Shown here one piece after another: positions 38,495-58,549 of a DNA stretch of 64,000 nt. The notes beneath the pieces were generated by a model. It did not search any database. It saw only the letters and a program-made list of their open reading frames with translations, and was not told the DNA's origin. Position 1 is the first letter of the stretch, and every line of letters starts with the position of its first letter. The position numbers were made by a program, and so were the translations under genes. The stretch spans positions 1 through 64,000 of the forward strand of contig NZ_BCYP01000010.1 of NCBI RefSeq assembly GCF_001598255.1. The letters run 5' to 3'. Origin of the DNA: Mitsuaria chitosanitabida ATCC BAA-476 = NBRC 102408. Its GTDB lineage: Bacteria > Pseudomonadota > Gammaproteobacteria > Burkholderiales > Burkholderiaceae_C.

Positions 38495-43012
<4,518 letters not shown>

Positions 43013-43056
43013 GCCGGGCCGTGCGATCGGGGCGTGGGGGCGAGTGGCGGGGTGCC

Positions 43057-43104
43057 GGAAGACCCTCACCCCGACCCTCTCCCGCAGAGCGGGAGAGGGA
43101 GTGA
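43057..43104 (+). repeat. REP-like element, direct repeat of the lhr 3' copy
   Basis: Same 48-base unit as at 42965-43012, in the same orientation, 92 bases later. The unit plus intervening DNA looks duplicated. It lies in the gap between lhr and the convergent SDR gene and can act as a hairpin terminator for both. Confidence 0.85.
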
Positions 43105-43161
43105 CCCGGTCCGGGCGATCGAGTCGTTGGGGCGAGTGGGCCAGTGGGCGAGTGGCCGGGG

Positions 43162-43935
43162 TCAGGCGGCGAAGCCGCCGTCGATCAGCAGGTCGCCGCC
43201 GGTGACGAAGCCGGCTTCGGGACCGGCCAGGTAGGCCACCATCGCGGCGATCTCGTCGGCCTTGCCGTGGCGGCGCAGCGCCATCAGGTCATGCAGGCCG
43301 GCGCCGAACTCGGTGTTCTCCGGGTTCATGTCGGTGTCGACCGGGCCCGGGGCCACGTTGTTCACCGTGATGCCGCGCGGACCCAGGTCCCGCGCCAGGC
43401 CCTTGACCAGGCCGACCAGCGCCGACTTGCTCATCGCGTAGGTCGCGCCGCCGGCGAAGGGCATGCGCTGCGCGTTGGTGCTGCCGATGTTGATGATCCG
43501 GCCGCCTTCCTTCATGTGCCTGGCCGCCGCCTGCGAGGCGACGAAGACCGAGCGCACGTTCACCGCCACGGTCTGGTCGAAGTCGGCCAGGGTGAAGCTC
43601 TCCAGCGGGCCGACCTTCAGCACGCCGGCGCTGTTGACCAGGATGTCCAGGCGGCCGAACTGCTCGGCCACGCTGTCGATCGCCAGCGTCAGCGCCGCGG
43701 CGTCGGTCGCGTCGGCCTTGATCGCGAGGGCGCGGCCACCGGTGGCCTTGATCTCCTCGACCAGCGCCTCGGCGGCGATGGCCGACGCGGCGTAGCCGAT
43801 GGCGACGGTCGCGCCTTCGCGGGCCAGGCGGCGGGCAGTGGCGGCGCCGATGCCGCGCGAGCCGCCGTGGATGAAGGCGACCTTGCCGTTCAGCGTGCCG
43901 GTGGCGGTCTTGGAGGTGGTGTTCAGGGTGCTCAT
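43162..43935 (-). CDS. short-chain dehydrogenase/reductase
   Basis: 257 aa, classical SDR. Nucleotide site AFIHGGSRGIGAATARRLAR, NNAG-equivalent LVNSAGVLKVG, catalytic Ser region IINIGSTNAQRMPFAGGATY and YAMSK (Tyr, Lys). Acidic or basic residue choice after strand 2 (AIGYAASAIAAEALVEEIKA) suggests NADP use but is not decisive. The call '3-oxoacyl-ACP reductase-like' is family-level only. Divergent from a LysR regulator with a 115-base shared gap, the usual layout for a LysR-controlled target. Confidence 0.9.
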   Translation of the reverse strand: MSTLNTTSKTATGTLNGKVAFIHGGSRGIGAATARRLAREGATVAIGYAASAIAAEALVEEIKATGGRALAIKADATDAAALTLAIDSVAEQFGRLDILVNSAGVLKVGPLESFTLADFDQTVAVNVRSVFVASQAAARHMKEGGRIINIGSTNAQRMPFAGGATYAMSKSALVGLVKGLARDLGPRGITVNNVAPGPVDTDMNPENTEFGAGLHDLMALRRHGKADEIAAMVAYLAGPEAGFVTGGDLLIDGGFAA

Positions 43936-44050
43936 GACGGGTTCCTTGTCGGAAGTGGAGGTTGGTGAAGCGAAGTTTGGGCGTCCGGACCTGATCCCGG
44001 TAGTCGATAAACGTCGCTTTCAGCTTCAACCATTGGTATAAGGTCGCCCC

Positions 44051-44980
44051 ATGTTGACCGAACTCCGCAGCTACCTGGACGCCTTCATCGCCGCCGCCGA
44101 CGAGGGCAGCTTCTCGGCCGCGGCGCGCCGGTTGGGGCTCACGCCGGCGGCGGTCAGCAAGAGCGTCGGCCAGTTCGAGGCCCGTCTGGGCGTGCGGCTC
44201 TTCCAGCGCAGCACCCGGCGCCTGGCGCTCACCACCGACGGCGAGCGCCTGTATGGCCAGGTGCGCCTGCCCTGGGGCGAGATCGGCGACGCGCTGACCG
44301 ATCTGCGCCAGGGCGCCGGCAAGCCCGCCGGGACGCTGAAGGTCGCGCTGGCCCACACCGTGGGCCGCGAGTACTTCGTCCCGTTGATGGGCGAGTTCGT
44401 GCGCCGCTATCCGGACGTCGTGCCCGACCTGCATTTCGACAACCGCCAGGTCGACCTCATCGCCGAGGGCTTCGATGTCGCCATCGGCGGCGGCATCGAG
44501 CTCACCGACGCCCTGATCGCGCGCGAGCTCGCACGGCTGCGCATCGTGCTGGTGGCCGCGCCGGCCTATCTCCAGGCCCATCCCGCGCCGGGCCACCCGT
44601 CCGAGCTCGCGCGGCATCGCGGCCTGCTGCGGCGACAGCTGAGCTCGGGCCGACTCGCGCCCTGGGCCCTGAAGAGCGAGGCGGGCGAGGAGGTCGTCGC
44701 CAGCGTGCGGCCCGTGATGGTGCTGGACGACCCCGAGGCGATCGCCCGCGCGGCCGCCACCGGCATGGGCATCGCGATGCTGCCGCGACCGCACGCCTTG
44801 CCGCTGCTGGAGCGCGGCGATCTGGTGCGCGTGCTGCCCGACTGGTACGCCGAGGCCCGCCCGCTGTCGATCTACTACACCAGCCGCAAGCTGGTGCCGG
44901 CCAAGGTCCGGGTCTTCGTCGACTACATCGTCAAGGAATTCCAGGCCAGCGGGCAGGCCGCGCGCTTCAGCGCGCGCTGA
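44051..44980 (+). CDS. LysR-family transcriptional regulator
   Basis: 309 aa. N-terminal winged HTH (LDAFIAAADEGSFSAAARRL, GLTPAAVSKSVGQFEARLGV, RLFQRSTRRLALTTDGERLY) and a periplasmic-binding-protein-like effector domain (TLKVALAHTVGREYFVPLMG..., GFDVAIGGGIELTDALIARE). Residues match the group that regulates neighbouring oxidoreductases (SDR here). AAGG precedes the ATG. The shared upstream region 43936-44050 contains an A+T-richer TAGTCGATAAACG stretch that could hold the T-N11-A box. Confidence 0.9.
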   Translation: MLTELRSYLDAFIAAADEGSFSAAARRLGLTPAAVSKSVGQFEARLGVRLFQRSTRRLALTTDGERLYGQVRLPWGEIGDALTDLRQGAGKPAGTLKVALAHTVGREYFVPLMGEFVRRYPDVVPDLHFDNRQVDLIAEGFDVAIGGGIELTDALIARELARLRIVLVAAPAYLQAHPAPGHPSELARHRGLLRRQLSSGRLAPWALKSEAGEEVVASVRPVMVLDDPEAIARAAATGMGIAMLPRPHALPLLERGDLVRVLPDWYAEARPLSIYYTSRKLVPAKVRVFVDYIVKEFQASGQAARFSAR

Positions 44981-45024
44981 GCCACCGCGGCGTCCCGACG
45001 CGCCGCGGACCGCGCACCGTGGTC

Positions 45025-45059
45025 CGAGACCCGAGACCCGAGACCCGAGACCCGAGACC
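45025..45059 (+). repeat. 7-bp tandem repeat (CGAGACC x5)
   Basis: Five perfect copies of CGAGACC between the LysR gene and the XRE regulator, non-coding, about 25 bases before the XRE promoter. A slippage-prone tract; it could change the spacing of any upstream site but not the promoter itself. Confidence 0.9.
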
Positions 45060-45081
45060 CACCTGACGCAGTCATGAATTC

Positions 45082-45111
45082 TTGAATGCTGGAAATCACA
45101 TCCAGTATGAT
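45082..45111 (+). promoter_or_regulatory. promoter and operator of the XRE-cupin regulator
   Basis: TTGAAT (45082-45087) -35, an 18-base spacer, TATGAT (45106-45111) -10. The spacer contains the dyad CTGGA-aatcaca-TCCAG (45089-45105), a likely self-operator. The predicted start falls on or next to the ATGs at 45115/45118, so the mRNA would be leaderless. Confidence 0.6.
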
Positions 45112-45117
45112 GGAATG

Positions 45118-45696
45118 ATGGATGTCGACCAACACGTGGCGCGGCGCATCCGCGACCTGCGCGCCCACAGCCAATGGACGCTCGAGCGTCTGGCCGAGCT
45201 CAGCGGCGTGAGCCGCTCCACCATCTCCGCGATCGAGCGCGCCGAGACCAGTCCCACCGCCACCGTGCTGCACAAGCTGGCCACGGCCTTCGGCATTCCG
45301 CTGGCGGCGCTGTTCTCCGAGGATGCGGAGGACGCCGAGCCCTCGCCGCTGGCGCGTTTCGCGGACCAGCAGACCTGGACCGATCCCGCCTCCGGCTATG
45401 TGCGCCGGCAGGTGTCGCCCACCGGCGCCGATCCGGCGATCGAGCTGGCCGAAGTCGTGTTCCCCGCCGGCAAGACGGTGGACTTCAACAGCCCGTCGCG
45501 CCGCGTCGTCCATCACCAGCTGGTGTGGATGCTGGAGGGCGAGATGGAGGTCACCGTCGGCGACGAGGCCTGGCGCCTGAAGCCCGGCGACTGCCTGGCC
45601 GTGGTGCTGGACCGGCGCATCGCCTTCCGCAATCCCACCCGCAAGGCCGCGCGCTACGCGGTCGCCCTGACCCAGAGAACCCCGAGGACCTCCTGA
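45118..45696 (+). CDS. XRE-cupin transcriptional regulator
   Basis: 192 aa from the ATG at 45118; an ATG at 45115 precedes it directly, and an upstream frame from 45082 would run through the promoter. HTH at about 8-65 (VARRIRDLRAHSQWTLERLA, GVSRSTISAIERAETSPTAT) and a C-terminal cupin (VVFPAGKTVDFNSPSRRVVH, VWMLEGEMEVTVGDEAWRLK, PGDCLAVVLDRRIAFRNPTR). Such proteins sense a small molecule or metal in the cupin pocket. The stop overlaps the start of the acetyltransferase (TGATG), which is its probable target or partner. Confidence 0.9.
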   Translation: MDVDQHVARRIRDLRAHSQWTLERLAELSGVSRSTISAIERAETSPTATVLHKLATAFGIPLAALFSEDAEDAEPSPLARFADQQTWTDPASGYVRRQVSPTGADPAIELAEVVFPAGKTVDFNSPSRRVVHHQLVWMLEGEMEVTVGDEAWRLKPGDCLAVVLDRRIAFRNPTRKAARYAVALTQRTPRTS

Positions 45697-46247
45697 TGAA
45701 CGCCCCCAAGACCGTCCCTCCGCTCGTGCCTTGCAGCTTCGAGCGCCATGCGCCCGCGATCCTCGAGATCCTCAACGACGCGATCCTGACCTCGACCGCG
45801 CTGTACGACTACCAGGCCCGGACGATGGACCACATGGTCACCTGGTTCGACGTCAAGGCCCGGGGCGGCTTCCCGGTGCTGGGCATCGAGGATCCGGACG
45901 GCCCGGCGGGCGCGCTGCTGGCCTTCGGCAGCTTCGGCGCCTTCCGGCCGTTTCCGGCCAACAAGTACACGGTCGAGCACTCGGTCTACGTGCGCAAGGA
46001 CCAGCGCGGGAAGGGCCTGGGCCGCGTGGTGCTGGAGGCCCTCGTCGCGGCCGCGACCGAGCGTCAGCTGCACTGCATGATCGGTGGCATCGACGCGACC
46101 AACGCCGGCAGCATCGCGCTGCACGAGCGGCTGGGCTTCCGGCATGTGGGCACGCTGCCGCAGGTGGGCTTCAAGTTCTCGAAATGGCTGGACCTGGCCT
46201 TCTACCAACTGATCCTGCCCACGCCCGCCGAACCCGTCGACGGTTGA
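45696..46247 (+). CDS. GNAT N-acetyltransferase, phosphinothricin/methionine-sulfone acetyltransferase-like
   Basis: 183 aa. The pattern is that of YncA/Pat acetyltransferases: LEILNDAILTSTALYDYQAR, MVTWFDVKARGGFPVLGIED, acetyl-CoA loop VRKDQRGKGLGRVVLEALVA, CMIGGIDATNAGSIALHERL, GFRHVGTLPQVGFKFSKWLD. Likely substrates are amino-acid-like compounds such as phosphinothricin or methionine sulfoximine; that is family knowledge only. It overlaps the XRE-cupin gene by 1 base, so one mRNA. Confidence 0.9.
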   Translation: MNAPKTVPPLVPCSFERHAPAILEILNDAILTSTALYDYQARTMDHMVTWFDVKARGGFPVLGIEDPDGPAGALLAFGSFGAFRPFPANKYTVEHSVYVRKDQRGKGLGRVVLEALVAAATERQLHCMIGGIDATNAGSIALHERLGFRHVGTLPQVGFKFSKWLDLAFYQLILPTPAEPVDG

Positions 46248-46350
46248 CGTCGAGATCGGACCCCCGAGGCAGAATCCGGACGTTCGGGGCGGGACCAGGC
46301 CGGCGTCAGGCCTGCTGGGACGCCTGGTTTTGAGGAATGGAGCGGCATCA

Positions 46351-46791
46351 ATGGCACTGACGAAGAAGGGTGAGTTCTGGTACGGGACCACGTCCGGCGA
46401 CACCCAGGCGGAACTGCGCAGCTACAGCATTGCGAATCGTCACGAGGCCGTCAGGTTCGCCTCGTCCAAATGCGATTGCGGATGCCGGACCTTCGCGCTG
46501 CAGACGGATGAGGAGGCCGGGGTGGCCATCCGCACCTGCACCGACTGCGGGCAGGAGCACCTGATGGGCGACAGTGGGGACCACGTCGCGGACGCCGCGC
46601 CCGAGACGCACGAATGCGTGTGCGAGAACGAGGTGTTCGAGCTGGTGTCCGGCGTCTCCGTGTACGAGGGCACCCATGACGTGCGCTGGTACTACATCGC
46701 GTGCCGCTGCGTGGAATGCAATCTGGTCGGGGTCTTCGCGGACTGGAAGTGCGAAGCCGGTGATGCGGCGGCCTTCCTCGCGAAGGTCTGA
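46351..46791 (+). CDS. small Cys-rich hypothetical protein, probable zinc binder
   Basis: 146 aa from the ATG at 46351 with GGAG 8 bases upstream; a TTG at 46330 would add 7 residues. Four clusters of paired cysteines: SSKCDCGCRTF, IRTCTDCGQEH, THECVCENEVF and ACRCVECNLVG. They are spaced as two zinc-ribbon halves flanking a beta-rich segment (FELVSGVSVYEGTHDVRWYY). I do not recognise the family by name. First gene of the accessory stretch, with a 103-base gap on its 5' side. Confidence 0.65.
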   Translation: MALTKKGEFWYGTTSGDTQAELRSYSIANRHEAVRFASSKCDCGCRTFALQTDEEAGVAIRTCTDCGQEHLMGDSGDHVADAAPETHECVCENEVFELVSGVSVYEGTHDVRWYYIACRCVECNLVGVFADWKCEAGDAAAFLAKV

Positions 46792-46885
46792 GCGGGACGT
46801 CATCGATGGGCGTGACGGGCTCCATGACCCGCGGCGCTGCGATGCTGCCGGGGATCTAGGCTGGGAGCGGACGCACCTGGTGCGC

Positions 46886-47281
46886 TCAAACGAGCACGAA
46901 CTTGAACGCTCGAATATGCGGGATCGCCCCGCCATCGCGGCGCAACTGCAAGGTGTGCACGCCAGCGGCGACGCCTATCGAGCCCTGCCGCATGAATTGA
47001 AATGCCTCCCAGCCGCCCGTCGTCGCCGCACAGGTTCCGGCAAGCAACTCCATGTCCATTTGGAACTCGGTCGGGCGCGACTCCAAGGCAGCGTACTCGA
47101 CGTAGAAGTCATAGTTGCCGGTGGCGGGGAATGCGATCTGATACTTCGCCATGCATTCGAACGGCGGTTCTCCCGATGATCGCGGTTGCGTATAGATGAC
47201 TCCTTCGCCGACGGGTCCTCCGACGAGGATATGAGCCGACGAGTTGAAGTCTGAAGCCCTACGGAGAATGATCGTTTCCAT
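46886..47281 (-). CDS. hypothetical beta-sandwich protein
   Basis: 131 aa from the ATG at 47281 (AAGGA 5 bases upstream); an ATG at 47287 adds two residues. Predicted beta-rich, with a carbohydrate-binding or jelly-roll look: KYQIAFPATGNYDFYVEYAA, EFQMDMELLAGTCAATTGGW, GVHTLQLRRDGGAIPHIRAF. Lacks a signal peptide. G+C is lower than the core genome, and it stands in reverse orientation at the end of a convergent pair. Could be a CBM6/galactose-binding-like module used on its own. Confidence 0.6.
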   Translation of the reverse strand: METIILRRASDFNSSAHILVGGPVGEGVIYTQPRSSGEPPFECMAKYQIAFPATGNYDFYVEYAALESRPTEFQMDMELLAGTCAATTGGWEAFQFMRQGSIGVAAGVHTLQLRRDGGAIPHIRAFKFVLV

Positions 47282-47287
47282 GCTCAT

Positions 47288-47850
47288 CCTTGAGTCACAC
47301 CTCCGGCACGATGATCGAGAGAAGGGGGAGACGCATCCCCAACGTTGATGAGACGGACTCGAGGCGAATCGCCTGATTTTCAGCTGGAGGACACCGTGCT
47401 CCCATACGCTGGTCGGTGCCGGTGCTGCATCCCCGTGAACGTGATGCCGGCCGTACCTGCACCAGCGCCTACCGACCTTGACTGCTGCTCATGAGGGGCG
47501 CCATGGAACTTCGTTGCGAGCCAGGAGCCGCAGCGACACAGCGTGTACGCCACTTCGATACTGATCAGCGGCCACTAGTTGAGACTGTTTGCGGCAGCAC
47601 TGCGGCCAGGCCGAGGACTGCTTCAGGCTGGTGTGAGACGTTCGTCGCTGAAGGCCTAAACAGCGGGAGCTGTCAACACCGGTCATCGAGCGCCGGCAGC
47701 TTCGACCGACCACTTCACGGCCGATTCCCGCCCCCCGAACACGGCCAGCGAGCGGGAGGCGGCGCCAAACGACCGCTCCCGCAGACCCCATCCGGCTCAA
47801 TGCGACCCGTTGCGACCGCAGCGTCTTCGTCCCGGCCGGCAGCTATGTGT
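47288..47850. other. non-coding accessory stretch
   Basis: About 560 bases without a frame I can support. Frames of 100-120 codons exist on both strands but are Arg/Ala/Pro-rich and unlike proteins. The stretch is probably decayed cassette DNA preceding the attC-like site at 47898. Confidence 0.5.
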
Positions 47851-47904
47851 CCATAGCGGAAGTGCAGTTAGGCCAGGTGCGCCGCCAAGAACCGGACGTT
47901 CAAC
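47851..47904 (-). repeat. left copy of a 54-bp inverted repeat
   Basis: On the minus strand it begins GTTGAACGTCCGGTTC and ends CTGCACTTCCGCTATGG. It matches 50010-50063 (plus strand) at about 47 of 54 positions. The two copies face each other and enclose the TIR operon and both attC-like sites. Confidence 0.85.
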
Positions 47905-48014
47905 GTTCGAGCTAAGCTGCCGCTAGGCAGATGGCTTCCGACCGCCCGGAAGGCAGAATGCCACAGGCCCATGAAGTGGCCAAGCGACGCCCGCCGTAGC
48001 GAGTCATGTTGAGC
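47898..48014 (+). other. integron attC-like recombination site 1
   Basis: RYYYAAC box GTTCAAC (47898-47904) and GTTRRRY box GTTGAGC (48008-48014), 117 bases end to end, complementary at 6 of 7 positions. Inner L-type boxes AGCTAAG and, in reverse, CGCTACG match at 5 of 7. The internal stem is weaker than in site 2. If real, its GTTRRRY end is the recombination point that opens the TIR cassette. Confidence 0.45.
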
Positions 48015-48075
48015 CATTGGTTTGGCGTGATTCGAGAACGCGCGCTCTTCTGCTATCTGGGAGGATAAGACCAAC

Positions 48076-49023
48076 ATGCCGACAAGGAAGATCCCTGCAG
48101 CCAAGAAGCAAAGTGGCAAACAGCCAGCTAGTACTTCAATCCATCGATTTGAGCCGGCAAAGCTGGACTCACTATTCGTGGCGCTCGATGCAATCGCTTG
48201 GCTGGATACGCCCAGCACTGCGCAGGTTGCTCAGTTCGCGGGCATTGACCCTCGTACCGCTGGAAAGCTACTAAAGAACGCATGCCAAATCGGCCTCGCC
48301 GATGCCGTAGGGTCTGGCTACGCCTTGACCCTGCCGTACCCTTACAAAGGGTCAAAGGAACAAAAGGAAGCCGTAGTTAAGGAGGCCTTGGTTCGGCTGC
48401 CGTTGCTTACTGGAGTTCGGCAGTTCCTACGGTTGGGCGATAGGACCGAAGTAGCGCTTCGTAAAGCTGCAACGATTGCAGGCGTCACACCCTTTGTCCC
48501 AACCGACCTTAATCCGCTCTTGGAGTGGGCGCAGACGTTGGGGGCGCTGCAACCCAGTCTAGTTGCCGAAGATCTAGTTGAGGCGGCCGCGATTGGTAAG
48601 GAGGAGCGCCACCGGCAAGAAAAGGACCGCCGAATCGCATTTCTTTCTCATAGCTCCAAAGACAAGCCGTTCATTCGTCAACTCGCCGCCGACCTCACCG
48701 CAAATGGCATAGATGTATGGCTTGATGAGCAGCGAATACGAGTTGGAGACTCCATTCCGGAAAAGCTGGCACAAGGGCTTGCCGGATCAGACTTCTTCTT
48801 GATCGCCATGAGCGAGCACTCAGCTGGTTCGGCGTGGGTTCAGAAAGAGCTGAACAATGCCCTAGTCCATGAGGTTCAGAGGCGCAACGTACACATTCTT
48901 CCATTGCGACTGGACGACACGCCAATGCCCACGATCATCAGTGACAAGAAGTACGCCGACTTCTCGAAGTCTTATAAATCGGGGTTGGACGAGCTGCTTG
49001 CAGCTTTGAAGGGGAGCGTATGA
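48076..49023 (+). CDS. winged-helix-TIR domain protein, putative NADase
   Basis: 315 aa, GGGAGGA upstream of the ATG. The Lys-rich N-terminus (PTRKIPAAKKQSGKQP) precedes one or two winged-helix-like domains at about 20-160 (STAQVAQFAGIDPRTAGKLL, TEVALRKAATIAGVTPFVPT) and a C-terminal TIR domain at about 185-315: RIAFLSHSSKDKPFIRQLAA, GIDVWLDEQRIRVGDSIPEK, SAWVQKELNNAL with Glu258 at the catalytic position of NAD-hydrolysing TIRs. Bacterial TIR proteins mostly act in phage defence by depleting NAD+ or making a signal molecule. It overlaps the next gene by 4 bases. Its base composition is far lower in G+C than flanking core genes, a sign of transfer, and it lies between attC-like sites. Confidence 0.85.
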   Translation: MPTRKIPAAKKQSGKQPASTSIHRFEPAKLDSLFVALDAIAWLDTPSTAQVAQFAGIDPRTAGKLLKNACQIGLADAVGSGYALTLPYPYKGSKEQKEAVVKEALVRLPLLTGVRQFLRLGDRTEVALRKAATIAGVTPFVPTDLNPLLEWAQTLGALQPSLVAEDLVEAAAIGKEERHRQEKDRRIAFLSHSSKDKPFIRQLAADLTANGIDVWLDEQRIRVGDSIPEKLAQGLAGSDFFLIAMSEHSAGSAWVQKELNNALVHEVQRRNVHILPLRLDDTPMPTIISDKKYADFSKSYKSGLDELLAALKGSV

Positions 49024-49844
49024 CTGCGACACCAGCGAAGAAGGTTCGGCAAATGCCGAAGGGCGGAAGAAAAGGAGGCTCAGTTTTTCCGCGGGTGGCA
49101 CTTGCTGATGCCCTCGGTTACGCGAAGAAGTTGGTGAGTAAGACTCATACTGGCCCGCAGACGAGGGACGTGATCCTAATGGGAGTGATCGGCTCGAAGC
49201 ACGAGAAGGGGGAGGTTGGCATGTCCGCCCTCAAGCAGTACGGCCTCATGACCGGCGACACCAAATCTAACTTCTCCGCAGACGATCTAGCCAAGAAAAT
49301 CTCAGCGGCACCGCCAGAGGAACTTATCCCGCTGTATCGCAGGGCTGCGCTGAAGCCGGCAATCTTTAGGGCGCTCTTCGAGACGTATCACGGTGACACT
49401 GTCTCCAAGGCCAAGTTAAAGCAGCGAGCGGCTGACCTCAAGGTCCACCCCGACGAAACAGGAAACTGTGTAGACCTGTATTCCGCAAGTATGGTCACCG
49501 CGCAACTGGTGACCATTGCAGGGGATCAAGTCGCCCATCTCGCCTCTGCCGAAGCATCGGCACCGTCCGTACAACTTAATGATGAAGTAGATTGCAATGC
49601 CTCGGAGGCTGAGGCGCTTGCGAGCGACAAATCCGCCGCCAGCGGCAAGTTGGATGGCGTCGTGGCGGCTCCACAAGAAGGCACCACAATGTCCACCAAA
49701 GGCGACGGTGCATCGGCACGTGAGATTGATGGGGGAACCGCTCCCCGTGCCGTCTTTAATGTCCACGTGACTCTCGATGCTAGTTTGGATGTCGAGAAGT
49801 TGGAAAAACAGTTGGCTTTGCTGCGTCGGTACGGAGCGCTCTAA
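49020..49844 (+). CDS. unrecognised partner of the TIR protein
   Basis: 274 aa, start ATG in the TIR gene's stop (ATGA). The N-terminus is basic (KKVRQMPKGGRKGGSVFPRV), followed by two segments with winged-helix or SAM-like character: ALADALGYAKKLVSKTHTGP, GEVGMSALKQYGLMTGDTKS and RAALKPAIFRALFETYHGDT. A variable Ser/Ala/Glu-rich linker (about 185-240) leads to a short C-terminal segment FNVHVTLDASLDVEKLEKQL. I know no family for it. The co-translation and shared low G+C imply that it works with the TIR protein, perhaps as sensor, DNA binder or regulator. Confidence 0.78.
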   Translation: MTATPAKKVRQMPKGGRKGGSVFPRVALADALGYAKKLVSKTHTGPQTRDVILMGVIGSKHEKGEVGMSALKQYGLMTGDTKSNFSADDLAKKISAAPPEELIPLYRRAALKPAIFRALFETYHGDTVSKAKLKQRAADLKVHPDETGNCVDLYSASMVTAQLVTIAGDQVAHLASAEASAPSVQLNDEVDCNASEAEALASDKSAASGKLDGVVAAPQEGTTMSTKGDGASAREIDGGTAPRAVFNVHVTLDASLDVEKLEKQLALLRRYGAL

Positions 49845-49890
49845 TTGCTTGCTGAGCACGAGCGTTTAGCGTCAGGTGCCCTGGGCTGAT

Positions 49891-50016
49891 GCCCAACCGC
49901 CTCGCTCAAGCGTAGCGCCAGCGGCAAGCGGCCACCCCGAGCGGCCCTTTGGTCCACGATGCACTGCGCGGGACGGGCCGTTTGCCGCTGTCGCCCGCTT
50001 CGCTCGACAGTTGAAC
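49891..50016 (+). other. integron attC-like recombination site 2
   Basis: GCCCAAC (RYYYAAC, 49891-49897) and GTTGAAC (GTTRRRY, 50010-50016), 126 bases. Left side GCCCAAC-CGCCTC-GCTCAAGC has the R''-spacer-L'' layout of classic attC sites; the right side reversed reads GTTCAAC-TGTCG-AGCGAAGC, so L'' has one unpaired extra base, as in real attC sites. The stem CAGCGGCAAGCGGCC (49919-49933) pairs with GGCCGTTTGCCGCTG (49976-49990) at 14 of 15 positions. It starts 47 bases after the partner gene's stop. Confidence 0.65.
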
Positions 50017-50063
50017 GTCCGGTTCGCGGCGGCGCACTTGGCGTGGCTGTACTTCCGCTATGG
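50010..50063 (+). repeat. right copy of the 54-bp inverted repeat
   Basis: Begins with the GTTGAAC of attC-like site 2 and ends CTGTACTTCCGCTATGG. It matches the left copy at 47851-47904 in reverse orientation with about seven differences. Confidence 0.85.
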
Positions 50064-50414
50064 GTTGAATGCGCCGGCTCGTCCGTCATTGCAGCGGTCA
50101 TTCCTGTCTACATGAAACAGTGGGCGGCGACCGGACGGCCTGGGCGGCCGCTTCGCTCACGACAGCCGTCATAGCGGCTGGCTGGTTGACGGCTGTGGCG
50201 ATGGCGGCTCTGGGGCCGAGACCGTAAGGCCGCCTACTTGCCGCAGAGGACCGCAACCGCTGCAAAGCCGACGCCTTCCCCAAGCTGAAGTCGCCCCGGC
50301 ATCGCCGCGGAAACGGACCTTAGACTTGGCGAGCCAATCGATCGCCCCAGTCCGAGACCATCTTTCCGGCGGGTCGGCGAAGAGCACCCGAAGCGAACTC
50401 AACCCAGGGACGAA
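50064..50414. other. non-coding accessory stretch
   Basis: About 350 bases downstream of attC-like site 2. Short inverted motifs are present, but no frame, hairpin terminator or further clear attC. An ACTCAAC at 50396-50402 fits RYYYAAC but has no partner box. Confidence 0.4.
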
Positions 50415-50693
50415 GTGAATCGAGCCAGCGCTTACGCGTTGCTTGCAAGCGAGCTGGAGGCATGCCGCCGACTGCCTTGGCTCAGGCTCGTCGACCTGAT
50501 TGGGCAGAAGCCAGTCGAGAAGCTTGTTGTCGTCGACGGCGAGGAACTTCTGCTTGAGGTTCAGGCCACGTGGGCTTCGGCCAAGAGGTCGTCGGTCCAT
50601 GTGACCGCCATTGCCTATGGTCCCAGCCACCTGACGATGGAACGTCTCGAGGAGCGTCTGACGATTGCCATGAGTGGCTCCCGTGCCGCATGA
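50415..50693 (+). CDS. small conserved-type hypothetical protein
   Basis: 92 aa from a GTG with AGGGA just upstream. The N-terminus MNRASAYALLASELEACRRL and the beta-hairpin EKLVVVDGEELLLEVQATWA resemble a widespread small-protein group found as stand-alone genes in accessory DNA; I cannot name it. The C-terminal part (TMERLEERLTIAMSGSRAA) may be diverged or truncated. It lies after attC-like site 2 and could be the next cassette's gene. Confidence 0.55.
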   Translation: MNRASAYALLASELEACRRLPWLRLVDLIGQKPVEKLVVVDGEELLLEVQATWASAKRSSVHVTAIAYGPSHLTMERLEERLTIAMSGSRAA

Positions 50694-50786
50694 CTCGAAC
50701 GACGTCCCGCGCCCCTCATGTGAGGGTCGCCGGCCGGCAACGCCGGACGCGCCGCTGCGGGACACTTGCCGGATGGGGGCAAGTTC

Positions 50787-51431
50787 ATGAATGTCGAGTG
50801 GCTGGTGATCCTGGCGATGGCCGTCTGCATCGCGATGCTGCTCTCGCGGCTGTCGCAGCAGGGGCGGCGGCACGACCGCGCGCGCCGTCGCGCCGATCGC
50901 CTGACGCAGGTCCTGCTCACGCTGTCGCGCGCGAATCGCATGGTGCTGCGCATCGACGACGAGCACGAGCTCTTCCGCGAGGCCTGCCGGATCTGCATCG
51001 ACGCGGGCCATGCCGTGCTGGCCACGGTCTACCTGAAGGAGGGCCACCTGGCGCATCGCGTCGCCAGCGCCGGCCCCGCCGCCGAGGTGCTGCGCAATGT
51101 GCCGAATCCGCTGGACCTCAGCGCGCCCGAATTCCAGTCCACCTACACCGCCCGCGTGCTGCGCGAGGGCGTCAGCGCGCTCAGCAACAACTACGGGCTG
51201 GACGCCACCGGCGGACGCTGGCGCACCGAGGCCGTGGCCGAGGGCATCCGCGCGATCGCCTGGATCCCGGTGCGTCGTGGGGACGCGACCGTGGCCGTTC
51301 TGATGCTCTGCGCCGGCGAGCTCGACTTCTTCGACGCCGAGCTCATGGGCTTGCTGGAGGAGTTGGGCGCCGACCTGTCCTACGCGCTCAACCTCATCGA
51401 CGAACGGCGGCATGCGCACAAACGTGCATGA
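50787..51431 (+). CDS. membrane-anchored GAF-domain protein
   Basis: 214 aa. One N-terminal membrane helix (VEWLVILAMAVCIAMLLSRL), a basic linker (RRHDRARRRADRLTQ), then a GAF domain at about 45-205 (LFREACRICIDAGHAVLATV, GVSALSNNYGLDATGGRWRT, AIAWIPVRRGDATVAVLMLC). It ends right after the GAF domain (LIDERRHAHKRA), where related proteins continue into a GGDEF, EAL or kinase domain, so it may be a shortened sensor. First core-like gene after the accessory stretch. Its start at 50787 follows a G-rich site. Confidence 0.75.
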   Translation: MNVEWLVILAMAVCIAMLLSRLSQQGRRHDRARRRADRLTQVLLTLSRANRMVLRIDDEHELFREACRICIDAGHAVLATVYLKEGHLAHRVASAGPAAEVLRNVPNPLDLSAPEFQSTYTARVLREGVSALSNNYGLDATGGRWRTEAVAEGIRAIAWIPVRRGDATVAVLMLCAGELDFFDAELMGLLEELGADLSYALNLIDERRHAHKRA

Positions 51432-51459
51432 ACGTGCGAAAGCAAGAATAAACGTGCAT
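51419..51459 (+). promoter_or_regulatory. repeated operator-like motif upstream of the DeoR gene
   Basis: AACGTGCAT at 51421-51429 and 51451-51459, with a shorter AACGTGC at 51431-51437. Direct repeats of this kind upstream of a DeoR-family gene suggest self-regulation. The first copy lies in the last codons of the GAF gene. Confidence 0.55.
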
Positions 51460-51487
51460 ACTCGCGGCTCTTCATCCGAGAGCCGCC

Positions 51488-52264
51488 ATGTCGACCATCG
51501 ATCTGCCGCAAGCCCGCCGCCAGCTCATCGCCGAGCGGCTGGCCGCCGGCCACGCCGTCATCGCCGCCGATCTGGCGGCTGAGTTCGGGCTGTCCGAGGA
51601 CGCCATCCGGCGCGACCTGCGGGCGCTCGCCGCCGAGGGGCTGTGCCGCCGCGTCTACGGCGGCGCGGTGCCGGTCACCGCGGGCGATCCGCCGCTGGCG
51701 GCGCGTCTGCGCGAGGCGCCGGATCGCAAGTCGGCCCTGGCCCGCGCCGGCGCCGCGACGGTGCAGCCGGGCGAGCTCGTCTTCATCGACACCGGCAGCA
51801 CCAACCTGGCCCTGGTGGACTTCCTGCCCGAGGACGCCGGCCTGACCGTCGCCACCAACGGCGTGGACGTGGCGGCGGCGGTGCTGCATCGGCAGGACCT
51901 GCGCCTGATCGTGATCGGCGGGGAGGTCGATCCGCATCTGGGCGGTTGCGTCGATGCCGCCGCGGTCGAGTCGCTGCGCGACCTGCGCATCGACCGCTGC
52001 TTCGTCGGCGCCTGCGCGCTGAGCACGCAGGGCCTGATGACGCCGCAGTTCAACGAGGCCACCTTCAAGCGCACCGTGATCCGCAACAGCCGGCATCGCG
52101 TCGCGCTGATCACCTCGGACAAGGTCGCCGCCCAGGCGCCGCACCGCATCGCCGAGCTGTCGGCGCTGCAGACGGTGGTGCTGGAGCAGGGCGCCGATGC
52201 GGGCGTCATCGACGCGCTGCGCGAGGCCGGCGTCGCGGTGATCCAGGTGGAGGCGGCGCGATGA
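51488..52264 (+). CDS. DeoR/GlpR-family transcriptional regulator
   Basis: 258 aa. N-terminal DeoR helix-turn-helix (RRQLIAERLAAGHAVIAADL, GLSEDAIRRDLRALAAEGLC, RRVYGGAVPV) and the sugar-phosphate-binding DeoR C-terminal domain (LVFIDTGSTNLALVDFLPED, LIVIGGEVDPHLGGCVDAAA, DRCFVGACALSTQGLMTPQF). Effector unknown, usually a phosphorylated sugar. Overlaps the MFS gene by 4 bases and probably controls it from the AACGTGCAT repeats. Confidence 0.92.
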   Translation: MSTIDLPQARRQLIAERLAAGHAVIAADLAAEFGLSEDAIRRDLRALAAEGLCRRVYGGAVPVTAGDPPLAARLREAPDRKSALARAGAATVQPGELVFIDTGSTNLALVDFLPEDAGLTVATNGVDVAAAVLHRQDLRLIVIGGEVDPHLGGCVDAAAVESLRDLRIDRCFVGACALSTQGLMTPQFNEATFKRTVIRNSRHRVALITSDKVAAQAPHRIAELSALQTVVLEQGADAGVIDALREAGVAVIQVEAAR

Positions 52265-53424
52265 GCGCGTCCGTCCCGACCCTCGCGCCGGCGACCGCCG
52301 CCGTGGACCGCCCCGAGCACCGGCTGGCCGTGCGGCTGGCCTTCCTGGTGGCGGGCTTCGGCATCGCCTGCTGGGCACCGCTGGTGCCCTTCGCCCGCGA
52401 GCGCCTGGGCATCGACGACGGCGCGCTCGGCGCGCTGCTGCTGTGCCTGGGCCTGGGCTCGGTCGCGGCGATGGTGGCGGCCGGCGCGCTGAGCACGCGC
52501 TTCGGCACGCGGCCGGTGATCGTCGGCAGCGGGCTCGGACTCGCGCTCGTGCTGCCGTGGCTGGTGGTCGCCGCTTCGCCGTGGACGCTTGGCCTGGCGC
52601 TGATGGCCTTCGGCGCCTGCCTCGGGTCGCTCGACGTCGCGATGAACATCAATGCGCTGGAGGTGGAACGCGGCGCGGGCCGGCCGATGATGTCCGGCTT
52701 CCACGCGCTGTACAGCGTCGGTGGCTTCATCGGCGCGGGCGTCATGACGCTGCTGCTGTCGACCGGCTTCGAACCCTTGCATGCGGTGCTGCTCGCCGCC
52801 GCGCCGATGGTGGTGGCGATGGTCGTCGCCTGGCCCTACGTGCTGGCGACAGGCCGGTCCGCCGAGGGGCCGCTGTTCGTGCGGCCGCGCGGTGTCGTCT
52901 GGCTGATGGCGCTGCTGGCCGCCGCGACCTTCCTGGCCGAGGGCGCCGTCCTGGATTGGGGCGCGCTGCTGATCACCGGCGCCGGCCTGGTGCCCGAGGC
53001 GCAGGGCGGGCTGGGCTTCATGCTGTTCTCGGTGGCGATGACCGCGGGCCGCTTCGCGGGCGATGCGATCGTGTCACGGCTCGGCGACCGCGCGACGCTG
53101 CGCGTCGGCGGCCTGGTCGCGGTGGCGGGCGTCGCGGCGCTGCTGCTCGCGTCATCACCGATCGTGGCCTTCGTCGGCTTCGTGCTGATCGGCCTGGGCG
53201 CGTCGAATCTGGTGCCGGTGCTGTTCCGCCGCGCCGGCCAGCAGAGCGTGATGCCCGCGGCCTTCGCCGTGTCGGCGGTCACGACCGCCGGCTATGCCGG
53301 CGTGCTGCTGGGGCCGGCGCTGATCGGCTTCCTGGCGCAGGCGATCGGGCTGGCCTCCGCGTTCTGGCTGCTCGCCGCGCTGCTGGTGCTGGTGCCGCTG
53401 AGCGCCGGTCGTCTGACGCGATAG
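52261..53424 (+). CDS. MFS transporter (YbjJ-like)
   Basis: 387 aa, twelve membrane helices. MFS loop GALSTRFGTRPVIVGSG after helix 2, and the conserved block AFGACLGSLDVAMNINALEV, ERGAGRPMMSGFHALYSVGG typical of the YbjJ/fucose-permease-like group. Substrate unknown; a sugar or sugar acid would suit the DeoR-type regulator it is coupled to (ATGA overlap at 52261). Confidence 0.88.
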   Translation: MSASVPTLAPATAAVDRPEHRLAVRLAFLVAGFGIACWAPLVPFARERLGIDDGALGALLLCLGLGSVAAMVAAGALSTRFGTRPVIVGSGLGLALVLPWLVVAASPWTLGLALMAFGACLGSLDVAMNINALEVERGAGRPMMSGFHALYSVGGFIGAGVMTLLLSTGFEPLHAVLLAAAPMVVAMVVAWPYVLATGRSAEGPLFVRPRGVVWLMALLAAATFLAEGAVLDWGALLITGAGLVPEAQGGLGFMLFSVAMTAGRFAGDAIVSRLGDRATLRVGGLVAVAGVAALLLASSPIVAFVGFVLIGLGASNLVPVLFRRAGQQSVMPAAFAVSAVTTAGYAGVLLGPALIGFLAQAIGLASAFWLLAALLVLVPLSAGRLTR

Positions 53425-53444
53425 GGCGGGCGTCGCGCCGCGCT

Positions 53445-54860
<1,416 letters not shown>

Positions 54861-55071
54861 CGTGTCGCCGGGTGGGTACGGGGCAAACCTGGTCGATGAA
54901 GGCTCGAGGCGAACGCCCACAAAGCCCCGGTCTCCCAGGACGTTGTAGGCATCATCAGCGTCACGTCGGGCGGGGCCCGGCCGTGAGGCGGTTCGCGGAG
55001 GCATGCCATCTCCGAAGCGGCGCAGTGTAGCCGAGCCCCCCGGCCGTCGGGTCGTGCGCCGTGCCGGCGCG

Positions 55072-56574
55072 TCAGCCGGCGAGCAGCGCCGGCAGCCGCC
55101 CCAGCGCCGCCGCCAGCGCCTCGTCCTGCATCGCGCTGTCGCCGACCAGCACGGCCGGCGGCAGGTCGCTCCGATGGCACAGCGCGCCCAGCCCCTGGAA
55201 GCGCAGCCCCACGCGGGCGGCCCGATCGAGGAAGGCCGCTTCGGTGAGGCCGGGCGGCAGCCACCAGGCGAAATGGAAACCCCCTTGCTCGCCGGTGAGG
55301 TGGAGCTGCTCGCGCGGGACCACGGCCTGCAGCGCCTCGACGACCCGCGCGCGCCGCTGCGCATAGACCGCCCGTGAGCGCCGCACGTGGCGCGCGAAGG
55401 CGCCGCTTTCCAGGAAGCGGGCCAGCGCCGCCTGCTCCAGCACGCTGATCGAGCGGCCTGTCGCGTACCGGCCGTCCAGGAAGCGCGAGGCCAGCACCCG
55501 CGGCACCACCGCATAGCCGATCCGCAGGCCGGCGAACAGGGTCTTGTTGAAGCTGCCGCAGTGAATGACGCGGTCGCCCTGGTCCAGGCTCTTGAGCGCC
55601 GGCAGTGGCGCGGCCTGGTAGTTGAACTCGCTGTCGTAGTCGTCCTCGATGAGCCACGCGCCCTGGGCCTGCGCCCAGGCCAGCAGCTCCAGCCGCCGCG
55701 AGATCGGCATCGTGACGCCCGTCGGCGACTGGTGCGCCGGCGTGACGTGGACCAGCCTCGCCGCCTCGTGCCGCCGGGCCTCGGTCACCGAGAAGCCGTG
55801 CGCGTCGATGGGCAGCGGGATCACGCGATCGGTGTAGCCGCGGAAGATCGTGCTGGCGGTGGGATAGCAGGGATCCTCGACCAGCGTGGTGTCGCCGGGG
55901 CCGACCAGCACCCGCGCGCAGAGGTCGATGGCATGGCGGATGCCCGAGACCACCAGGAGCTGGTCCGGGTCGCAGGCGATGCCGCGCGCCGCGCCCAGGT
56001 AGCGCGCGATCTGCTCGCGCAACGCGCGCGAGCCGCGCGGGTCCTCGTCGGCCAGGGCCTGGACCGGCGTCGTCCGCAGCGCGTGTGCGAGGCAGCGCTT
56101 CCATTCGGCCATCGGAAAGAGGCCGGGATCGGCCACGCGCGCGATGAAGCCGGCGTTCAGGCGACCGGTGTCGGTGGGGGGCGTCGAGGGGCCAGGTCTT
56201 GCCGCGATCGAGGCGGGCCGTTCAGGATCGAGGAAGCGATCCGGCACCTGCGCGCAGACATAGGTGCCGGAGCCGGGGACGCCGACCACGTAGCCCTCGG
56301 CGCGCAACTGGTCGTAGGCCCATTCGACGGTGGAGCGCGACACGCCCATGCGCTGCGCCAGGCTGCGCGTCGACGGCACCCGGGCTTGCGCGGCGAGCGC
56401 GCCGCCCAGGATCTGGCCGCGCAGGGTCTCGTAGACCCAGGCCTGCTTGCCGTTCTCGGCGACGGGCGGCGACATGGCGAGATCGAGGCTCGATTCACGC
56501 TTGCCGCGATGGCCGCGTGCGCCGCCTTTGCCAGACGCGCCGTGGTCGCTGAAGGATTCAAGTGGCTGGGTCAT
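55072..56574 (-). CDS. MocR-family (GntR-aminotransferase) regulator
   Basis: 500 aa. A basic, Gly-rich start leads to a GntR winged helix (QAWVYETLRGQILGGALAAQ, VPSTRSLAQRMGVSRSTVEW, AYDQLRAEGYVVGVPGSGTY), then a fold-type-I aminotransferase domain with PLP-binding Lys in HCGSFNKTLFAGLRIGYAVV, and DYDSEFNYQ, HVTPAHQSPTGVTMPISRRL. MocR proteins usually control a divergent neighbour; here the gene facing it is the ferredoxin-M24 fusion (109 bases away). The upstream gap 54861-55071 (beyond its stop) separates it from the CLC gene and holds nothing I can name. Confidence 0.92.
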   Translation of the reverse strand: MTQPLESFSDHGASGKGGARGHRGKRESSLDLAMSPPVAENGKQAWVYETLRGQILGGALAAQARVPSTRSLAQRMGVSRSTVEWAYDQLRAEGYVVGVPGSGTYVCAQVPDRFLDPERPASIAARPGPSTPPTDTGRLNAGFIARVADPGLFPMAEWKRCLAHALRTTPVQALADEDPRGSRALREQIARYLGAARGIACDPDQLLVVSGIRHAIDLCARVLVGPGDTTLVEDPCYPTASTIFRGYTDRVIPLPIDAHGFSVTEARRHEAARLVHVTPAHQSPTGVTMPISRRLELLAWAQAQGAWLIEDDYDSEFNYQAAPLPALKSLDQGDRVIHCGSFNKTLFAGLRIGYAVVPRVLASRFLDGRYATGRSISVLEQAALARFLESGAFARHVRRSRAVYAQRRARVVEALQAVVPREQLHLTGEQGGFHFAWWLPPGLTEAAFLDRAARVGLRFQGLGALCHRSDLPPAVLVGDSAMQDEALAAALGRLPALLAG

Positions 56575-56683
56575 CTGTCGAGAAATGGCTCTTGGAGGCC
56601 ATCCAGTCGGAACGTAGATTCTGCGCTCATCGGGCGACGTTTCCCTGTCGGAGCGCGCCCCGACTCACGCCTGAACCCACGCC

Positions 56684-57808
56684 ATGGACACCGCCCCGAC
56701 CTCGCCGAACCCCGCCAATCCCGCCAATCCCGCCAATCCCGCCAATCCCGCCAATCCCGCGAATCCCGCCAATCCCGCGAATCCCGCCAACTCCGCGCTC
56801 GCCGACAAGCTCGCGAGCCCCGTCGACGCATCGACCGCCCGCCACATCGCCCTGAACACCGGTGCCTTCAGCGTCAAGCCCGGCCAGACGCTGCTCCATG
56901 CCGCGCTGGCGGCTGGGGTCTCGGTGCCGTACTCGTGCCAGCGCGGGGCCTGCGGTTCCTGCCGCGTGCGGGTGGTGTCCGGCTCGCACGAGCGCATCCG
57001 GCCCGCGACCGCGGACGGCTTCCGCGTCGCCGAGGACGAGCTGCTGATGTGCCAGTGCCGACCCACCTCGGACATGCGGCTGCATGTGCCCGACTGGACG
57101 CCCAAGCCCGTGCCGAGGATCGACCTGAGCGCCGCCGACGCGCCGGCCTGGGAGCAGGTGGGGGAGGGCTTCGACCTGCGCGGCGTGCTGGAGGCCCGGC
57201 GTCTGAGCATCGAGGCCGTGGAGCGCATCGGGCGCCTGATGACACCCGGCATGACCACGCAGCAGGGCCTGGACGCGGCGGAACGCTGCCTGCGCGAGAT
57301 GGGTTCGATCCGGACTTGGCACCCGACCTACATCCGCTTCGGCGCGGATGCGCAGTTCCCGTGGAACCGGCCGCTGGACCGGGCGCGCGTGCTGCGGGAG
57401 CGGGACGTGATCGTGGTGGACATCGGCCCCGTGTGGGGCGAGTACGAGGGCGATTACGGCGACACCTTTGTCGTCGGCGACGATCCGGAGCACCAGGCCT
57501 GCGCGCGGGCCGCGCGCGAGATCCACGCCGAGACCCGTGCCGAATGGGCGCGCGGCCTCACGGGCGTCGAGCTCTACGATTTCGCCGCCGCCCGGGCGAG
57601 CGCGCGTGGCTATGAACTGGTGCCCGAGGTGGCGGGACATCGGATCGCGGACTTCCCGCACGCGCTGTACGGAAAGCAGGACCTGGCCAAGGCCGGCTTC
57701 GCGCCGGCCCACGGCTTGTGGGTGCTGGAGATCCAGATCCGGCAACCGGAACGGCAGATCGGGGCGTTCTACGAGGATGTGCTGCTGGGGGAAGAGGCCT
57801 TGGCCTGA
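56684..57808 (+). CDS. 2Fe-2S ferredoxin domain fused to M24-type metallopeptidase
   Basis: 374 aa. After a (Asn-Pro-Ala)n N-terminus (about 10-40, from a 9-base tandem repeat) comes a plant-type 2Fe-2S domain at about 48-130: SCQRGACGSCRVRV (C-x4-C-x2-C) with the fourth Cys in ELLMCQCRP. Residues about 150-370 are an M24/pita-bread domain: RVLRERDVIVVDIGPVWGEY, GDYGDTFVVGDDPEHQACAR, EVAGHRIADFPH, LWVLEIQIR, GAFYEDVLL, giving the Asp, Asp, His, Glu, Glu set. The two modules together are unusual. It could be a redox-gated peptidase or a hydrolase/lyase with electron input. Divergent from its MocR gene. Confidence 0.82.
   Translation: MDTAPTSPNPANPANPANPANPANPANPANPANPANSALADKLASPVDASTARHIALNTGAFSVKPGQTLLHAALAAGVSVPYSCQRGACGSCRVRVVSGSHERIRPATADGFRVAEDELLMCQCRPTSDMRLHVPDWTPKPVPRIDLSAADAPAWEQVGEGFDLRGVLEARRLSIEAVERIGRLMTPGMTTQQGLDAAERCLREMGSIRTWHPTYIRFGADAQFPWNRPLDRARVLRERDVIVVDIGPVWGEYEGDYGDTFVVGDDPEHQACARAAREIHAETRAEWARGLTGVELYDFAAARASARGYELVPEVAGHRIADFPHALYGKQDLAKAGFAPAHGLWVLEIQIRQPERQIGAFYEDVLLGEEALA
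56705..56790 (+). repeat. 9-bp tandem repeat encoding (Asn-Pro-Ala)n
   Basis: About nine copies of AAYCCCGCC near the 5' end of the ferredoxin-M24 gene. Copies differ only by C/T or C/G changes. It keeps the reading frame at any copy number, so protein length may vary between strains. Confidence 0.88.
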
Positions 57809-57997
57809 GGTTCGCCCCCCGGGGCGTCAAGGAGGACTGTTCCCTGCGCAATCGCGAAGTCCTCGGTGCGGTCGGCCGCGGCCAGGCCGGATTCGCGATC
57901 GATCCGCGGACCGGCCAGCACTTGCCTCCCCCATGGGACGGTATTGCGGCCGATCGATTCGGAGAGACACTGCGCCGTCATTCAAAGGGAGAACAAC

Positions 57998-58549
57998 TTG
58001 ACAGCTCGCATCTTGTCGATGGCCGCCGGCCTGCTCATGGCCGGCACCCTGTTGACCGCTCATGCCGCGGAGGTGGATTACAAGCTGCTGCCGAACTTCG
58101 GCGTCTCGGTCGGAGAGCCGTTCCCGCTCGATGCGCTCGTCGATCCGGAGGGCAAGGCGACCGGGCGAGATCGATGGCTCGGCAAGCGGGTGCTGATCAA
58201 CTTCTATACGCGGCATTGCGCGCCCTGCATCAAGGAAGTCCCAAAGCTCAATGAAGTGATGAAGCGCCGCGGCGACATCCACGTCCTCGCCATCACGCCC
58301 GATTCGGGCGTCGAGGCGGCCAAGTATGCGAAGCAGCACGGACTGAACTGGCCGGTGGCGGCCGATGCGGAGTCATTGCTCTTCAAGCAGTTGAAGGTCA
58401 TGGCCTTCCCCGCGTTCGCGCTGCTCGACGACAAGGGCCGGCTGATGGCGACCGTCCAGGCCAACCAGCTCGGCGGCGAGGATGGCCACGCCACCGTGGC
58501 CGGCATCGAGACCTGGTTGGACACGCAGCTGGCCAAGGCGGCGAACTGA
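57998..58549 (+). CDS. TlpA/thioredoxin-like exported protein
   Basis: 183 aa from a TTG at 57998 preceded by AGGGAG; no in-frame ATG fits a signal peptide start before the hydrophobic core (ILSMAAGLLMAGTLLTAHA). The mature part is a thioredoxin-like fold with active site RHCAPCIKEVPKLNEVM (CAPC), and TYPQ-like features PAFALLDDKGRLMATVQANQ with the cis-Pro in AFPAFALL. Likely periplasmic disulfide reduction, TlpA/ResA-like. Its gene stands alone between the M24 gene and a hairpin terminator. Confidence 0.82.
   Translation: MTARILSMAAGLLMAGTLLTAHAAEVDYKLLPNFGVSVGEPFPLDALVDPEGKATGRDRWLGKRVLINFYTRHCAPCIKEVPKLNEVMKRRGDIHVLAITPDSGVEAAKYAKQHGLNWPVAADAESLLFKQLKVMAFPAFALLDDKGRLMATVQANQLGGEDGHATVAGIETWLDTQLAKAAN

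Follow-up and report, generated by a model that had tools for sequence, protein, structure and literature searches.

Darracq 2025, Getz 2025 and Kieffer 2025 reportedly describe integron cassettes that carry anti-phage systems, and the two-gene locus analyzed here, in a 64,000-nt stretch of Mitsuaria chitosanitabida DNA (hereafter the window), likewise has defense-type genes beside attC sites, although without an integrase. It differs from such cassettes in the opposed orientation of its two attC sites, of which the left one is part of a different, truncated cassette. Among defense systems, Thoeris (the TIR protein ThsB with ThsA) also places a TIR domain in a two-gene unit, and several PADLOC ThsB models match our TIR protein (best E 1.6e-10); however, the curated ThsB cut-offs are not reached (PF08937, 19.6 bits against 21.2; NF058526, 40.7 against 220), whereas the TIR piece of a relative from a Syntrophus contig passes PF08937 at 23.4 bits. 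The locus departs from Thoeris further in its partner protein, which has no SIR2, SLOG or Macro match and so is not ThsA-like, and in the 185-aa N-terminal region that the TIR protein has of its own. The best PADLOC match of the TIR protein is the candidate PDC-S66 (E 2.9e-22, residues 175–277), which we take to be a one-gene candidate; the match is confined to the TIR domain and the residues close to it. The TIR retron effector NF042941 (RT-TIR) matches the TIR domain at 77.1 bits, far below its 600-bit cut-off, and the pair has no reverse transcriptase. Finally, distant relatives of the partner adjoin the genes of PDC-M21, a two-gene candidate with one AbiEii-like member, but here the effector is a TIR protein and the partner family has no PADLOC model match. 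No published description of the TIR/partner pair was found in the literature searched, which does not prove the pair unpublished. The features of the locus are as follows, from left to right.

47620–47862, minus strand: noncoding element of ~240 bp
47851–47917, minus strand: left arm of an inverted repeat, comprising the R' half of an attC site plus 47 bp outside it
47898–48026, minus strand: left attC site
48027–48053, minus strand: 3' stump of a foreign cassette gene
48054–48075, plus strand: leader (22 bp) preceding the TIR gene and containing GGGAGG, a ribosome-binding-type motif
48076–49023, plus strand: gene for a 315-aa TIR-domain protein (an N-terminal region of ~185 aa without a named family, then the TIR domain at 189–308, with Glu258)
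49020–49844, plus strand: gene for the 274-aa partner protein (conserved module at about residues 20–176, variable linker, short conserved C-terminus)
49891–50016, plus strand: right attC site, 46 bp past the partner stop
49997–50063, plus strand: right arm of the same inverted repeat (67 bp)

The original prediction described a TIR gene and an unrecognized partner gene that overlap by 4 bases and stand out by low G+C, and the coordinates above and the base composition bear this out: G+C is 0.55 and 0.57 in the two genes versus 0.65 and 0.70 in the two neighbor genes measured (0.71 in the window), and GC3 is 0.59 and 0.62 versus 0.85 and 0.91. The partner also proved to belong to no named family: searches of Pfam (best E 0.27), NCBIfam, PHROGs and PADLOC gave it nothing credible, and at E ≤5 the PDB held no match. 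A search for sigma-70 promoter-like sites in 47700–50200 found 0 versus 0.6 expected, and an Rfam search of the two-gene unit returned nothing credible. Elsewhere in the window, at 54939–55022 on the minus strand, the fluoride riboswitch model RF01734 matches with 36.7 bits, above its gathering score of 34.

On the TIR protein, Pfam TIR_2 matches residues 189–308 well above its cut-off (E 1.5e-28, 100.1 bits against 28). Glu258, predicted to be intact, lies within SAWVQKELNN, where the W..xEL motif is present; it is invariant in all three aligned sequences (window, Syntrophus, Achromobacter) and faces a Glu in the three PDB alignments inspected, out of 18 PDB sequences matched, the solved-structure relatives including the NAD hydrolase AbTIR. 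We take Glu258 to be the catalytic Glu of TIR NADases. The protein is thus a predicted NADase, with NAD+ cleavage suggested by the TIR domain and the catalytic-type Glu; TIR domains can also act as scaffolds or virulence factors. A winged helix, claimed for the N-terminal region, found no support in Pfam, NCBIfam, PHROGs or PDB sequence comparison and was dropped. AlphaFold runs from three-sequence alignments gave poor models (pLDDT 38.1 and 51.9), the latter, which bears on the winged helix, being unusably poor. Similarity between this N-terminal region and the partner module was not significant by hhalign.

To find close relatives, 84,980 genomes, one per species, were scanned with six peptide patterns from the window partner. 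Of 58 stretches matched, two were confirmed as partner relatives, 58–59% identical in the best segment: one on a Syntrophus MAG contig (L015) and one in Achromobacter animicus (L016). In both, the partner lies directly behind the same TIR gene, so that the same gene pair, in the same order, does recur in other genomes; the 4-base overlap is also present in the Syntrophus copy, and the TIR protein is 77% identical to that of Achromobacter and 80% to the Syntrophus piece. The Syntrophus TIR frame contains a stop, and the first part of the Achromobacter partner is out of frame with the remainder; sequencing error is a possible cause of both. Substitution counts, taken from the open pieces of these two loci only, gave pS 0.80–0.87 versus pN 0.08–0.16 in three TIR comparisons, and pS 0.81 and 0.85 with pN 0.26 and 0.27 for the whole partner against Syntrophus and Achromobacter; within the partner, pN against Syntrophus was 0.20 in the module and 0.39 in the linker plus C-terminus, and pS across all seven comparisons was 0.77–0.87, i.e., near saturation. 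These counts indicate that both genes are under strong purifying selection between distant copies, a statement that applies to the family rather than to this one copy.

Beyond these relatives the partner was seldom encountered. No plasmid or phage record matched it at E ≤1e-5, and neither the partner (query A1) nor the TIR protein (query A2) had a confirmed match in viral contigs. Among 299 genomes of the bacterial family, with at most the best 8 candidates per genome scored, the partner gave only its own full match and three weak ones. The TIR protein matched 162 plasmid records, although in no record did 80% of the query align at a single location, and two phage records, in the domain only; at E ≤1e-40 it was found only in its own genome among 369 (best 6 candidates per genome scored). 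The two best plasmid matches, both Salmonella, are 71% identical fragments in two pieces; on one of these plasmids (L021, 5990–6340) the fragments lie near fimbrial genes, where the plasmid's incomplete gene table is blank. The Achromobacter DNA of the pair had no match in E. coli genomes. By these sequence comparisons, the pair is a rare, conserved two-gene unit.

For distant relatives of the partner, a profile of three sequences (window, Syntrophus and Achromobacter) was run against 4155 stop-to-stop ORFs from the collected loci. Its best new matches were in genomes G495 (E 2.2e-9), G085 (1.5e-8), G666 (7.9e-6) and G311 (1e-4), and weak ones in G636 (locus L148, 0.025) and at locus L019 (0.035). 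The G636 match became significant only with a wider profile (A4) that already contained loci L018 and L020; in 369 genomes of the class, with the best 6 candidates per genome scored, A4 matched four, the window's own included. The L019 ORF, one of the three weak matches within the family and by its appearance an amino-acid enzyme, was dropped: its single-sequence E of 7.6e-5 was similar to that of L020 (6.4e-5), yet the three-sequence profile gave it 0.035 and L020 1e-4. The G495 protein (L149:1875-2942, minus strand) carries the partner module followed by an effector-type domain in one chain; this C-terminal domain matches the PADLOC model 'Effector TIR' (E 7e-9) and, below cut-off, Nuc_deoxyrib_tr (PF05014, E 1.1e-4). 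Neither window protein had a tblastn match in the 55-kb G495 contig at E ≤1e-3, so the relation is remote and rests on profile and phmmer scores. At two further loci (L144 and L020, from G666 and G311) the partner relative adjoins PDC-M21A (E 3.8e-40 and 4.5e-38) and PDC-M21B (2.4e-67 and 2e-69), the PDC-M21B genes being AbiEii-like (19.2 and 22.8 bits against a Pfam cut-off of 22.5, one over). There the relatives are divergent to PDC-M21A/B and could be a third component of that candidate system. By eye, no effector-type ORF was seen beside the G085 relative. The new TIR-based pair of the original prediction thus gains support from co-occurrence in both close relatives and from a distant partner relative fused to a TIR-like effector.

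To call attC sites, we built a covariance model, R1, from attC sites of other members of the bacterial family; 32 distinct sites were gathered, of which 23 were aligned. The source sites had been found by similarity to the window's own sites and by a word pattern, which calls for caution over circularity, and the window sites themselves were excluded from the model; its E-values are rough, the calibration being short. R1 called one site on each side of the pair. The right site, as predicted, was called on the plus strand (58.5 bits, against 20.3 on the minus strand) and resembles attC sites of other arrays. The left site scored 52.4 bits on the minus strand, with no plus-strand match listed at E ≤10, and is homologous to attC sites in L066 and G232:C13. 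In the whole 5.8-Mb genome, with the best 150 of 12,463 first-look candidates scored, only these two sites were found at E ≤0.001. A second model, R2, built from 16 short attC sites, listed neither of them at E ≤1 in the window.

The claim that the pair lies between two attC sites of the same orientation therefore held for the two flanking sites and failed for their orientation, the right one being plus and the left one minus. The box at 48008–48014, taken to open the unit, corresponds in the alignment with G003 to the inner L'' box rather than to a terminal core box, within a left site that spans 47898–48026 on the minus strand. A same-orientation cassette is ruled out by the strand of the covariance matches together with homology to arrays. 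As a yardstick, the better strand of all matches at E ≤0.001 was uniform (hand count) in four array loci, L133 (15/15), L134 (11/11), L135 (8/8) and L136 (20/20); with strand uniform at 54/54 sites, the opposite orientation in the window is real and unusual. Genomes G232, G310 and G324 carry homologues of the right site (as plus) and the left site (as minus) on one strand of one contig, in searches that scored the best 2 candidates per genome; gene direction and attC orientation were compared only in L066. Dense, uniform cassette arrays occur in L133, L134 and L136 (G324, G163), with 15, 11 and 20 attC sites in 20, 20 and 14 kb, and are a source for the screening of unknown cassettes.

The left junction accounts for the inverted site. 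Window 47895–48053 aligns locally to a G003 attC (128/162 columns identical) that, in this congener, stands behind a codirectional ORF of 144 aa (L066:9118-9552). Because the homology extends beyond the site into the last codons of that open frame, the left site must be the end of a cassette on the minus strand; all that is left of the gene in that cassette is the stump, which meets the TIR leader at about 48053/48054. Inspection of the leader by eye found no attI or attC cut site; the pair's 5' boundary lies at neither an attI nor a same-orientation attC cut point, while the right attC stands directly behind the genes in their own orientation. Since the two sites face outward, the pair is not an intact excisable cassette; recombination between oppositely oriented sites would flip the intervening DNA instead of releasing it. 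What remains of the predicted integron cassette is integron carriage in general, the intact present-day cassette being contradicted by an inverted left attC joined to a foreign stump.

No integron integrase was found in the genome: the best TIGR02249 match in its 56 contigs, with all 5 candidates scored, reached E 3.2e-23 and 84.1 bits against a cut-off of 265, a level that we regard as background because all 14 control genomes also match below cut-off. That cut-off is passed in 3 of 16 genomes of the genus, the window's own among the 16. With respect to CALIN elements (at least two attC sites without an integrase), the locus has two sites and no integrase found, but the sites are on opposite strands. 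The R' ends of both attC sites share the outer 47 bp in inverted orientation (second copy E 2.4e-12); terminal inverted repeats of a transposon were rejected, as the arms overlap the attC R' halves and no transposase was seen by eye among the ORFs between them. Weak matches to the outer 47 bp at E ≤0.01 occurred in 9 genomes besides the window's own, of 120 searched, and the 12 loci used for the attC model gave nothing better than E 0.56. The ~240-bp noncoding element at 47620–47862 shares 75% identity with the sequence that immediately follows intI in congener G001, and 85% with a G006 locus at which no attC was called; of 16 genomes of the genus, 3 carry it at E ≤1e-6, counting the window's own. 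It could place the locus in integron-associated DNA, and a dispersed noncoding element explains these matches equally well. No empty site was found, since blastn of window 42000–58000 against the GAF-gene neighborhood of four congeners matched only the GAF gene.

The relatives of the pair bear on its origin as well. An attC-like site lies 75 bp past the partner stop in the Syntrophus copy; it is degenerate, with 21.2 bits by R1 and 20.5 bits by R2 (E 0.039 over nine sources, 7.3e-4 over 2.7 kb). At the Achromobacter copy neither model found an attC. In G495, an attC of 43.1 bits lies 25 bp ahead of the start of the fusion gene; two more same-strand attC sites follow (19.7 and 32.3 bits), and a fourth, weak one stands directly behind the fusion gene (9.2 bits, E 0.43). 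In this 55-kb contig, tblastn with one IntI query found no IntI. This small array (L149, G495:C9, 438–3613, minus strand) also holds a PIN-like ORF (by eye, no Pfam match) and a T5orf172 ORF. Given the degenerate attC behind the Syntrophus copy and the partner-family fusion inside an attC array, an integron origin of the pair is likely. Its history may then have been as follows: the pair would have come in as a cassette with the right-hand site as its attC; its 5' end would later have been joined, at a junction not formed by attC, to the stump that an inverted cassette had left, and it would now be trapped in a host whose genome yielded no integrase.

Our preferred reading, to which we give about an even chance, is that of an immune module of two proteins that spreads horizontally in association with integrons, with the TIR protein as effector and the partner as sensor or regulator. 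We infer a role in anti-phage defense from sequence, and the functional link between the two proteins from the catalytic-type Glu, the co-conservation and the fusion. Once assembled, the TIR protein would cleave NAD+ or make a cyclic ADP-ribose signal and so stop the infected cell, with destruction of NAD upon the trigger amounting to abortive infection. The conserved module of the partner would sense an infection cue, or hold and release the TIR protein, acting as trigger or brake; this role is proposed in view of the G495 protein, in which the module is joined to a TIR-like/deoxyribosyltransferase effector, and of the loci at which it adjoins an AbiEii-like nucleotidyltransferase pair. Against the immune module speak the broken-looking frame in each of the two other copies, the fragmentary TIR matches on the Salmonella plasmids, the Achromobacter copy with no attC, the negative promoter search and the remoteness of the G495 relative. 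More tentatively, and as the less probable part of our reading, the partner family may be an undescribed one whose module, as a sensor or adaptor, can be swapped among several lethal effectors, with integrons spreading some versions as ready-made immune cassettes. Under such exchange, the module would work with a TIR protein in trans in the window pair, with a TIR-like/deoxyribosyltransferase N-glycosidase in cis in G495, and beside AbiEii-type nucleotidyltransferase pairs at the PDC-M21 loci.

Three other accounts were weighed against this module. A toxin-antitoxin-like addiction cassette, with the TIR protein as toxin and the partner as antitoxin or autorepressor, would persist by stabilizing arrays rather than by fighting phages; the overlapping genes, the cassette setting and the AbiEii-like genes (a type IV toxin-antitoxin toxin class) adjoining two partner relatives, one over the Pfam cut-off, agree with it, but a free antitoxin would not be expected to share a single chain with an effector, as the module does in G495, and no known antitoxin family was matched in Pfam, PADLOC, NCBIfam or PHROGs, and we consider it rather unlikely. 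Slightly less credit goes to a TIR protein that acts alone, with the partner as a mere DNA-binding operon regulator. PDC-S66 as the best PADLOC match would suit this, as would a partner relative (L018/L150) that has no recognizable effector-type neighbor; both genes nevertheless keep the same order in the two close relatives, and the fusion protein joins module and effector in a single chain.

Equally improbable, in our estimate, is that the pair is dead cargo, left behind as an integron decayed and now without function in its host. No integrase exceeds the family cut-off, there is no promoter-like site, the stump of another cassette adjoins the pair, and the frames of its relatives look broken; yet both frames are open in the window copy, and selection between distant copies has been purifying, though that speaks for the family and not for this copy.

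For the biology of integrons, the locus indicates that a cassette may come to lie between attC sites that both face outward, and that reading attC sites box by box can yield a wrong orientation. TIR proteins are common to bacterial, plant and animal immunity, and only a minority of bacterial TIR architectures have a known trigger. The partner, being conserved and also fused to, or adjoining, other likely effectors, is a concrete candidate for a TIR trigger.
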